DNA from: Enterobacteriaceae endosymbiont of Donacia cincticornis
GTDB taxonomy: Bacteria > Pseudomonadota > Gammaproteobacteria > Enterobacterales > Enterobacteriaceae
Direction of reading: 5' to 3'
NCBI RefSeq assembly: GCF_012568845.1
Contig: NZ_CP046194.1
Coordinates: 250,385-314,384, forward strand
Length of the DNA: 64,000 nt
The notes below the pieces were generated by a model. The model was not told where the DNA came from, searched no databases, and saw nothing but the letters and a program-made list of their open reading frames with translations. Positions 7,635 to 10,637 of this stretch are shown here, in pieces (position 1 is the first letter of the stretch; every line of letters begins with the position of its first letter). The position numbers and the translations under genes were made by a program.

Positions 7635-8453
7635 TTAAATATATTTTCTAATAATTTTTTTTGTATTAGGTATAATACCGTGCCATAAATAAAAAGAATA
7701 TGCTGCTTGTTCAATTAACATTCCAGTACCATCTGATACATTTTTAACACCATGTTCAACACACCATTTTAAAAATGGTGTGTTGCCTTTATTATAAAAA
7801 AGATCATAACAAAAAATATTTGGCTTAATAATAGATGAAGGAATATTAGGAATTTTTTTTTTCATGCTACTAGAAGTAGCATTAATAATTATATCATAAT
7901 TTATATTATTTATTGAATGATATGATAAATCTTCAATTTTTAAATAATTTATTTTTTTAATATTTTTAAAATATCGAACAATATCTTTAGCATGTTGATA
8001 AGTACGATTTACAATTGTAATATTACAACCAAAATGAATTAATGAATATATAACTCCTTGTGCAGCACCTCCAGCACCTAGTAATAGTATATTACTTTTA
8101 GTAGTAATAAAATTTAAATTTTTTAAATCTTTTAATAATCCTATTCCATCTGTATTATCACCTAAAATTTTTTTAGAACTTGTAATTTTTATCGTATTAA
8201 CAACTCCAGAATATTTTGCTCTACTAGTTAGTATATCACATATTTTATATGCTTCTTTTTTAAAAGGAATAGTAATATTAGCTCCTAAACCTCCATTTTG
8301 AAAAAAATTTCTAATAGATTTAGAAAAAAAATTTATTGGTACATTAATTTTTATATAATTCTGTAATATTCCTGTTTGTTTAGCAAATAATTTATGTATA
8401 ATTGGAGACTTACTATGTTTTATAGGATTTCCAAATACTGCAAATAATTTCAT
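7635..8453 (-). CDS. aroE: Shikimate dehydrogenase
   Basis: 272 residues, identical in length to E. coli AroE. It reduces 3-dehydroshikimate to shikimate with NADPH, toward chorismate and aromatic amino acids. Shikimate site: NPIKHSKSP at the N-terminus, Lys65 in ANITIPFKK and Asp102 in GDNTDGIG. NADP site: GAGGAAQG and the adenine-phosphate-binding VNRTYQHA. The ATG has AGGA upstream and lies two bases after the stop of the decayed tsaC, the same junction as in E. coli. With aroA at 35-36 kb it shows that chorismate synthesis is maintained, a common nutritional service of insect symbionts. Confidence 0.97.
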   Translation of the reverse strand: MKLFAVFGNPIKHSKSPIIHKLFAKQTGILQNYIKINVPINFFSKSIRNFFQNGGLGANITIPFKKEAYKICDILTSRAKYSGVVNTIKITSSKKILGDNTDGIGLLKDLKNLNFITTKSNILLLGAGGAAQGVIYSLIHFGCNITIVNRTYQHAKDIVRYFKNIKKINYLKIEDLSYHSINNINYDIIINATSSSMKKKIPNIPSSIIKPNIFCYDLFYNKGNTPFLKWCVEHGVKNVSDGTGMLIEQAAYSFYLWHGIIPNTKKIIRKYI

Positions 8454-8455
8454 AT

Positions 8456-9002
8456 TTATCCTTTACAAATAATTAAATTAATAAAACTATCCTTAATTTT
8501 AGAAAGTTTTGAATATCTTTCTTTTTTTCTAGGTAAAATTAAAATATATTTTTTTATATTATAAAAATTACATGTTTTTTTAAAAAAGTAGACATAGTTT
8601 CATCTATAAAATATTTTTACTAATAGAAATAATAAATTTTTTAAAATAATTATAAATTTTTTGTATTAAATAATAATTAGTAACAATTACATATACAGTA
8701 ATAAAATTAAAATTTTTAATCAATATAGTTTTAATAGACATCATAATCCATAATATTTTAAGTAAATAAAATTTTTTTTTTCTACATTAAATAATTTTTT
8801 TTATTTATATAATTTAATAATTAATTATATTTAAAAATAATTAAAATTAATCTTTTTTTTATATTATGTTTTTTTATAATTAAAAATTTATATATCGTTT
8901 TTTTATTATCTGTATAACATCATTCTAAATTAAATAAAGATTCAGTAGAATTTTTTATAATTTTATCTATTTTAAATACATTAATAAAATTTTAATATCC
9001 AT
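8456..9002 (-). pseudogene. tsaC: tsaC (yrdC) pseudogene, threonylcarbamoyl-AMP synthase remnant
   Basis: No intact frame exists, but pieces in different frames align in order with E. coli TsaC. An N-terminal piece reads STESLFNLE, stop, CYTDNKKTIYKFLIIKK, then KKRLILIIFKYN (family: YPTEAVFGVGCDPD...LLELKQ..DKGLILIAANY). A middle piece carries NFNFITVYVIVTNYYLIQ and FKKFIISISKN (family: FDSLAVRVTDHPLV...KPLVSTSAN). A C-terminal piece ending KLSKIKDSFINLIICKG and TAA matches the natural end of TsaC. Total length (547 bases) fits a 190-codon gene carrying several stops and at least two frame changes. Its position just before aroE is the E. coli tsaC position. The product is certainly not made intact. 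Confidence 0.85.
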
Positions 9003-9126
9003 AATCTTTTTTTATTTTTATATAAAATTATAAATAAATTATATATAAATAATTTATTTATAAAAAATTTTAAAAATTTCTGTTATATTATAAAAATAAT
9101 TATTTTATAATAAAAAAATTATTACT
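9003..9126. other. Non-coding remainder between tsaC remnant and def
   Basis: 124 bases of A/T sequence where E. coli has yrdD, smg and dprA. I see no recognisable remnant of these genes. It must include the def-fmt promoter, but no clear -35/-10 pair stands out. Confidence 0.5.
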
Positions 9127-9663
9127 ATGTCTATAATGAAATTATTATATTTTCCTAATAAAAAATTAAGAAAAAAAGCAAGATCTATAAAAAAAATAGA
9201 TGACAACATTAAATTATTAGTTAATAATATGCTTAAAACAATGTACTTTTACAATGGCATTGGATTAGCAGCTACACAAATAGGAATAAATAAAAAAATT
9301 ATAGTTATTGATATAACCATAAAAAGAAATAATCCTTTAATATTAATTAATCCAAAAATTATAGTAATTGATAAATCTAAAATTAGTAATAAAGAAGGTT
9401 GTCTTTCTATACCTATTAAACAACAATATTTTATTTTAAGATATAAAAAAATAAAAATTAAAGCTAAAAATTTAATGAATGAAAATATTGAATTAGAAGC
9501 AAAATATTTATTATCTTATTGTATACAACATGAAATAGATCATTTAAATGGAATTTTATTTATTGATTATTTATCAAATTTAAAATATCAAAGAATTTAT
9601 GATAAAATAAAAAAACTTAATAAAAAAATAATATTTATAAAAAAACATAATCATATAAAATGA
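9127..9663 (+). CDS. def: Peptide deformylase
   Basis: 178 residues, E. coli Def being 169. It removes the N-formyl group from nascent proteins at the ribosome exit. All three family motifs are present: GIGLAATQ (44-51), EGCLSIP with metal-ligand Cys92, and QHEIDHLNG with ligands His135 and His139 and catalytic Glu136. The first ATG gives MSIMKLLYFP, matching the family N-terminus; a second ATG three codons in is possible. The stop overlaps the fmt start (ATGA), so the two are translationally coupled, as expected for enzymes that remove and add the same formyl group. Confidence 0.97.
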   Translation: MSIMKLLYFPNKKLRKKARSIKKIDDNIKLLVNNMLKTMYFYNGIGLAATQIGINKKIIVIDITIKRNNPLILINPKIIVIDKSKISNKEGCLSIPIKQQYFILRYKKIKIKAKNLMNENIELEAKYLLSYCIQHEIDHLNGILFIDYLSNLKYQRIYDKIKKLNKKIIFIKKHNHIK

Positions 9664-10637
9664 ATAAAAAAAAAATCAAAATTATTTTTATAGGTACTTC
9701 AAAATTTTCTGCTTATCATTTAAAAGGTTTAATAAATAGTATCCATAAAATATCTTGTATTATTACAAAACCAGATACTCGTGCTAATAGAGGACATAAG
9801 TTAATTTTTAATCCTATAAAAAAATTAGCTTTAAAATATAGAATTGATATCTTACAACCAGAATCTTTAAGTTCTTTATCTTTAATTAAGCAAATTAAAA
9901 ATTATAAATGTGATATAATTATTGTTGTAGATTATGGATTATTAATTCCTAATCCAATATTAAATATTCCTAAATTATTTTGTATGAATGTACATGCTTC
10001 ATTATTACCTAGATGGAGAGGTGCAGCTCCTATACAAAGAGCATTATTAGCTAATGATTTAAAAACAGGTATTAGTATTATCAAAATGAATAATTTTTTA
10101 GATCAGGGGGATATTATTTATCAAATAGAATATAATATTTTATTATATGATACATATGGATCATTATATAAAAAATTAGCAATACTTGGATTACAAGGAG
10201 TATTATTTATTTTAAATAAAATTGCAAAAGGTACAAAAATAAAATTTAAATCTCAAAATATTAATATAATAAAACCTACATATGCAGAAAAAATATCTAA
10301 AAAAGAATGTAAATTAGATTGGTTATTACCAGCTAAAAAATTAGAATGTATGATTCGTGCGTTTAATCCTTATCCGGGAACATATTTCTTTGTAAAAGAT
10401 AAAAGATTTAAAGTATGGCAAGCAGAAGTTATTGCTAATTTTAATAATAATTATATTAATAAAACACCTGGAACAATTTTATCAATAAATAGGTACGGTA
10501 TACAAATAAATACTATAAATGGAATTTTAAATATTCAAATCATTCAACCTAGTGGTAAAAAACAAATGAATATTCAAAATTTTTTAAATTTTAATCAATA
10601 TAAAAATTTATTTATAAAAAATGATATCATTATTTAA
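9660..10637 (+). CDS. fmt: Methionyl-tRNA formyltransferase
   Basis: 325 residues, E. coli Fmt being 315. It formylates Met-tRNA(fMet) with 10-formyl-THF before translation initiation. The N-terminal transferase domain begins IIFIGTSKFSAYHLKGL and carries NVHASLLPRWRGAAPIQRA with the catalytic Asn and His. It also has DQGDI with the catalytic Asp, and a C-terminal OB-like tRNA-binding domain (RAFNPYPGTYF). The substrate tRNA gene is at 61.2 kb. It converges on rplQ with an 8-base overlap of coding ends. E. coli rsmB and trkA, which follow fmt there, are absent. Confidence 0.96.
   Translation: MNKKKIKIIFIGTSKFSAYHLKGLINSIHKISCIITKPDTRANRGHKLIFNPIKKLALKYRIDILQPESLSSLSLIKQIKNYKCDIIIVVDYGLLIPNPILNIPKLFCMNVHASLLPRWRGAAPIQRALLANDLKTGISIIKMNNFLDQGDIIYQIEYNILLYDTYGSLYKKLAILGLQGVLFILNKIAKGTKIKFKSQNINIIKPTYAEKISKKECKLDWLLPAKKLECMIRAFNPYPGTYFFVKDKRFKVWQAEVIANFNNNYINKTPGTILSINRYGIQINTINGILNIQIIQPSGKKQMNIQNFLNFNQYKNLFIKNDIII

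Follow-up and report, generated by a model that had tools for sequence, protein, structure and literature searches.

A broken tsaC alongside conserved tsaD and tsaB genes in the genome of a reed beetle symbiont suggests an outside source of threonylcarbamoyl-AMP

Comparative analysis indicates that the endosymbiont of the reed beetle Donacia cincticornis has lost a working tsaC (yrdC) and has kept TsaD and TsaB, which act in the following step of t6A synthesis, under purifying selection. From threonine, bicarbonate and ATP, TsaC produces threonylcarbamoyl-AMP (TC-AMP), from which TsaD and TsaB move the threonylcarbamoyl group onto A37 of ANN-reading tRNAs. Animal cells make TC-AMP for their own tRNAs, with YRDC as the synthase. 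Because the second step is retained under selection without the first, the best explanation, towards which we lean slightly, is that TsaB-TsaD would still make t6A and would depend on an outside supply of TC-AMP or its synthase, with the host as the most likely source. The modification and the TsaC/Sua5 family belong to a small set of near-universal traits in translation, and a single genus here offers several losses, graded decay, intact sister genomes for comparison and measurements of the selection that acts on tsaD and tsaB.

Within the window, the whole 64,000-nucleotide stretch analysed from a genome of 461,437 bases in two contigs (454,754 and 6,683), the alignments identify what is evidently a full-length tsaC remnant with a destroyed reading frame, located at the syntenic place of tsaC between aroE and def (Table 1). 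The original prediction that tsaC is a pseudogene is borne out: the sequence has 78.1% DNA identity to the intact tsaC of the congeneric genome G015 (blastn, 570 columns, E 6e-123) and carries no fewer than five frameshifting indels, together with five stops. Specifically, the G015 alignment holds eight indels, five of them frameshifting, and places stops at old-frame codons 59, 71, 81, 136 and 144 (numbered from 0), counts that depend on the alignment and exclude stops inside inserted bases. Alignment with TsaC of relatives, which had been set as a test, gives significant matches, full-length at the DNA level. The other 17 intact congeneric tsaC genes match the remnant at 64-75% DNA identity (blastn, weakest 64.2%), the alignments start at the old start codon, and the last base of the remnant is reached by 16 of the 18 intact genes, with the other two stopping one or two bases short. 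E-values alone flatter in this AT-rich window, where the best match outside positions 8300-9300 has 59.9% identity over part of tsaC at E 5e-15; chance matches elsewhere in the window lie at about 58-63% and cover parts of tsaC only, and the full-length matches at 64-78% stand apart.

At the protein level, G015 TsaC matches the remnant in three frames with the pieces in order (tblastn), and a profile built from 12 intact congeneric TsaC proteins finds three pieces there, two of them with internal stops. As such, the predicted in-order alignment of fragments stands, with its extent and frames corrected: the pieces occupy three frames and begin at residue 6 instead of the YPTEAVFG region. The remnant retains the former ATG and a stop ahead of aroE, from which it is separated by two bases, as predicted, a spacing shared by 11 of 18 relatives with intact tsaC; the accompanying claim that this is the E. 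coli arrangement fails, the tsaC-aroE gap in E. coli K-12 being four bases. At the codon for the Arg of the KxR/SxN tetrad of TsaC (PMC10321239), the remnant encodes His according to the mapping made in this analysis.

Table 1. The tsaC remnant and its neighbours, with positions in the window.
Feature	Position	Strand	Evidence
tsaC (yrdC) pseudogene, former ATG to former stop	8456..9002	-	blastn to intact G015 tsaC
remnant piece, TsaC residues 6-76	8773..8988	-	tblastn 55.6% identity, frame -2
remnant piece, TsaC residues 69-142	8589..8798	-	tblastn 52.7% identity, frame -3
remnant piece, TsaC residues 150-186 (C-terminus)	8459..8569	-	tblastn 51.4% identity, frame -1
aroE, intact, downstream of tsaC remnant	7635..8453	-	NCBIfam NF001310, 362.8 bits, cut-off 221
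def, intact, other flank of remnant	9127..9663	+	NCBIfam TIGR00079, 167.7 bits, cut-off 103.95
fmt, intact, gene beyond def	9660..10637	+	NCBIfam TIGR00460, 258 bits, cut-off 201.5

The rest of the genome holds no recognisable substitute. PF01300 (TsaC/Sua5) has no match in the whole genome, with 14 of 14 in the control, and the 12-protein profile yields only the broken remnant genome-wide, compared with intact genes in the control genomes G015 and G023 (E 4e-110 and 2e-98); a TsaC2-type paralogue elsewhere, one of the possibilities raised beforehand, was thus found by neither search. The open frame of TsaD (340 aa) stops roughly 0.7 kb short of the window, and residues 3-312 of the protein match chains 3zet_B and 4ydu_A of solved TsaD structures; TsaB is a 226-aa open frame. 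With both frames open and under purifying selection, the idea that the whole t6A set has gone is contradicted. The variant in which tsaC alone is lost holds for TsaD and TsaB and not for TsaE, for which the genome, like the rest of the genus, has no match over the cut-off; the E. coli-type four-gene set (TsaB, TsaC, TsaD, TsaE) is therefore short of TsaE as well as TsaC in this genome. The genome's own PF02367 match, tried as a TsaE candidate, was rejected on account of its location in the shikimate kinase AroK.

Among 24 genomes of the genus (two of the 26 species in Table 1 of PMC7289800 are absent from the sample), PF01300 detects TsaC in 18 and not in six, namely the symbionts of D. cincticornis, D. 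proxima, D. piscatrix, D. provostii, Macroplea mutica and M. appendiculata. All 24 carry two matches to PF00814, corresponding to TsaD and TsaB, a family found in 13 of 14 control genomes and missed in Corynebacterium glutamicum. The remnants come in several grades: that of D. proxima is full-length and 81% identical to intact tsaC (blastn), that of D. provostii lies at about 64.6%, and only the last part is recognisable in D. piscatrix, whose compared stretch includes 193 N, none within the aroE-def interval used. Neither Macroplea genome shows a remnant above chance matches in comparison with intact tsaC. Where the gene is kept, a dN/dS of 0.16-0.28 in seven pairs indicates purifying selection, and the intact copy of D. 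crassipes lies at 0.23-0.26 in three pairs. As a separate observation, tsaB of the D. piscatrix symbiont (L187 in G014) contains a run of unknown residues with an identical short sequence at both flanks, which looks like a scaffold-gap artefact.

Assuming no regain, four losses are the best count and at least three are indicated: one in D. cincticornis, one in D. proxima with D. piscatrix, one in D. provostii and one in Macroplea. The count of four follows from the nesting of an intact copy among the losers. In a tree of TsaD, TsaB and AroE (840 columns), D. crassipes, with intact tsaC, pairs with D. cincticornis (support 92), next come D. proxima and D. piscatrix and then D. provostii, and Macroplea is the sister of Neohaemonia, a tsaC keeper; the same arrangement is best for 22,597 aligned DNA sites from two regions in six genomes. 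The relevant internal branch of the six-genome tree is short, which is why the number is stated as at least three, with four as the best estimate. A single loss shared by D. cincticornis, D. proxima and D. piscatrix requires a tree that is rejected (AU p = 0.011, SH p = 0.010), and three losses remain even under that tree. The D. cincticornis and D. proxima remnants do have two lesions in common, a deletion of 2 bases within an A-run and the stop at codon 59, but a genome this rich in AT could acquire either type more than once. Placing D. crassipes outside all losers is likewise rejected (AU p = 2e-6), and placing D. cincticornis outside the rest (AU p = 0.033, SH p = 0.055) would not lower the count. 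The six losers fall in two clades, that of D. crassipes and the Haemoniini, and the pairs D. cincticornis/D. crassipes and Macroplea/Neohaemonia form a natural series for testing an outside supply of TC-AMP.

Pairwise dN/dS values (NG86, selected pairs, including five of the 15 possible loser-only pairs) argue that TsaD and TsaB are under purifying selection in TsaC-less genomes. In the five loser-only pairs, TsaD lies at 0.13-0.28 (upper 95% bootstrap bounds at most 0.41) and TsaB at 0.26-0.42 (upper bounds at most 0.74); the highest bound, 0.74, comes from the D. cincticornis/D. proxima pair for TsaB, and none reaches 1. The seven keeper pairs give 0.19-0.38 for TsaD and 0.19-0.56 for TsaB. 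Three of the five loser pairs, for example those that set D. cincticornis against D. proxima or against D. provostii, span separate losses and so include time in which tsaC was present; selection after the loss is tested by the Macroplea pair, which has no recognisable remnant (TsaD 0.17, interval 0.11-0.27; TsaB 0.27, interval 0.14-0.55), and also by the D. proxima/D. piscatrix pair, provided that these two descend from a single loss. Weak relaxation of either gene would escape these tests.

The sequences of the enzyme and of its targets are similarly conserved. Both His residues of the TsaD motif HxxxH and the Asp of C[TI]DN, which we take to bind metal, are identical in 6/6 losers and 18/18 keepers. 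Most other TsaD motif positions are invariant across the same genomes, some vary in one or both groups, and position 215 has Gln for Lys in D. provostii alone. In the six losers and three keepers compared, U36-A37 is kept in the ANN-reading tRNAs, and a search of these tRNAs for compensating anticodon-loop changes in the losers found none. The sole loser loop that differs from the keepers is that of tRNA-Thr-UGU in D. provostii, with C32 changed to U; U38 in tRNA-Thr-GGU occurs in both Macroplea and also in the keeper Neohaemonia. The tRNA-Lys anticodon loop, read by eye, is CUUUUAA with A37 present, and no tRNA-Arg(UCU) turned up in the D. tomentosa stretch examined. Separately, 29 tRNAs were found in the D. 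cincticornis symbiont genome, with tRNA-Glu not among them. This gap is probably an assembly artefact; in M. mutica, tRNA-Glu lies in one of the two rRNA operons and has possibly been lost in other assemblies (PMC7289800).

In the proposed mechanism, the symbiont, which no longer makes TsaC, would have no TC-AMP synthesis of its own, and the beetle host cell would go on making TC-AMP for its own tRNAs. TC-AMP, or the animal YRDC, would then reach the bacterium from the host cell, and the symbiont TsaB-TsaD would move the threonylcarbamoyl group onto A37 of ANN-reading tRNAs. We infer all three elements of this model, the presence of t6A, the outside TC-AMP activity and the host as its source. 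TC-AMP, which TsaC makes and TsaD uses, is unstable with a short half-life, and its passage into mitochondria has been raised (PMC5951830). Import would be chemically awkward because of this instability, and cool water might lengthen the life of the compound. Counting against supply by the host, the symbiont spends part of its cycle outside host cells (PMC7289800). Selection on TsaD and TsaB could also reflect another role.

Such a role is the core of an alternative that we judge unlikely, namely that t6A has been lost and that TsaD-TsaB is retained for a different function. The known substrate route has gone with TsaC, and retention shows only that TsaD and TsaB matter. Against this stand the unchanged invariant motif positions of TsaD, target tRNA loops that are unchanged save for one base, and a large stake in ANN decoding, with ANN making up 8250 of 18002 codons (45.8%) in 60 non-overlapping ORFs of the window. 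Moreover, we know of no accepted second function of bacterial TsaD-TsaB.

Retention of TsaD and TsaB would be explained equally well if a symbiont protein of another family, so far unrecognised, made TC-AMP and kept the bacterium self-sufficient. We consider this rather improbable. The genus is reported to be perfectly syntenic, with 403-454 genes (PMC7289800), which makes the gain of a gene in each loser lineage unlikely, and a replacement shared from the ancestor would render the tsaC of the keepers redundant, which sits badly with the purifying selection measured on it.

It might also be that TsaD-TsaB is on its way out after the loss of tsaC, with its decay still pending, as the remnants of D. 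cincticornis and D. proxima, both readable over their whole length, would allow. The Macroplea genomes speak against this, having no recognisable remnant, yet open TsaD and TsaB frames with the low dN/dS given above, and so does the family at large, and we regard pending decay as quite improbable. PF01300 is absent in 37 of 392 family genomes, the D. cincticornis symbiont included, as assembled and with drafts counted; all 37 are at most 0.9 Mb by rounded size, and they belong to 19 genera, 14 of which have no TsaC-bearing member sampled. A full TsaD match is present in 34 of the 36 other TsaC-less genomes (17 of the 36 assigned by inference, and their genera likewise), compared with 44/44 small TsaC-bearing genomes, drawn from 65 listed. 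The pattern suggests that step one has been lost repeatedly in the family and step two hardly ever. As for the remaining two genomes, the draft G390 has a partial TsaD match, and G334 (genus g11), at 99% completeness, lacks both TsaC and a TsaD-type match and retains a TsaB-like match only; G334 may be a symbiont that really has no t6A, or its assembly may have a gap.

Returning to supply by the host, a wider proposal can be offered tentatively, as a possibility somewhat short of an even bet: an animal-made, short-lived adenylate, TC-AMP, may be taken up for symbiont tRNA modification, or animal YRDC may enter the bacterium. Either could have made tsaC repeatedly dispensable, in three or more (probably four) lineages of reed beetle symbionts and in members of 19 sampled genera of the family, and left the transferase indispensable.

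Parts of this picture have precedents. Nanoarchaeum equitans likewise is a small-genome obligate symbiont with no tsaC/sua5 and a retained step-two transferase (KEOPS), and supply of TC-AMP or of the enzyme by its host has been proposed, with the enzyme favoured; it differs in being an archaeon that lives at 90 C as the ectosymbiont of another archaeon and uses KEOPS (PMC10321239). The reed beetle symbionts, in contrast, are bacteria with TsaB-TsaD, and they combine several losses within one genus with remnants of several grades. Mitochondria resemble the proposed state of the symbiont in that the TC-AMP source for modifying their tRNAs, YRDC/Sua5, is encoded outside the compartment, in the nucleus (PMC5951830). 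They differ in being organelles with protein import. To our knowledge, no protein import has been described for the reed beetle symbiont. TsaC-less symbionts and a suggested host supply were thus already known, and the new part is the repeated loss in one genus. No published paper treating Donacia together with tsaC was found, and among the listed papers on tsaC or threonylcarbamoyl in symbionts no title or opening of an abstract reports recurrent tsaC loss with tsaD retention within one genus; supplements may tabulate such losses.

A further precedent leads to a different supplier. Buchnera aphidicola of Cinara cedri (BCc) is also an insect symbiont without tsaC, and tsaD is not listed among the nine genes named as missing from it (PMC9035817). 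Its co-symbiont Serratia has tsaC, and a contribution from that side has been proposed (PMC9035817). That a second bacterium in the beetle provides TC-AMP or TsaC, a source already named in the original prediction, seems very improbable for the reed beetles, for which no such partner or second obligate symbiont was seen in the account of the symbiosis in PMC7289800, although that paper mentions possible gut bacteria. Least credible, to the point of being negligible, is that the broken frame is a sequencing or assembly error or is rescued by slippage or read-through: the genome is Illumina-only (PMC7289800) and some indels fall within A-runs, but this single gene carries all five frameshifting indels and five stops as well as His for the tetrad Arg, and tsaC is broken or unrecognisable in five other genomes, including that of M. 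mutica, for which PacBio reads were used (PMC7289800).

TsaE follows a course of its own. None of the 24 genus genomes, tsaC keepers included, has a TsaE match (PF02367) over the cut-off, and the absence is accordingly not tied to the loss of tsaC in the genus; there are 11 weak matches, of which that of the D. cincticornis symbiont is the AroK match described above, and the control gave matches in 11 of 14 genomes, over the cut-off in nine. Any t6A that the genus symbionts make would arise with no recognisable TsaE involved. This counts against the preferred explanation, in that the TsaE-less keepers, too, lack the full E. coli-type set. Serratia symbiotica STs resembles the 24 genus genomes in a t6A set without tsaE and differs from the D. 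cincticornis symbiont in having kept tsaC beside tsaB and tsaD (PMC5013485), and genomes without tsaB or tsaE have been described, with the suggestion that symbionts possibly acquire host proteins (PMC11332805). Among the small genomes of the family, no link between the losses of TsaC and TsaE was found, with TsaE over the cut-off in 12/36 TsaC-less and 9/44 TsaC-bearing genomes. Within genus g102, whose genomes are about 300 kb, the TsaE-type genes of G305, G365 and G124 are over the cut-off with one in-frame TGA each, and the fourth member, G233, has no in-frame TGA; UGA could be read as an amino acid in G305, G365 and G124.
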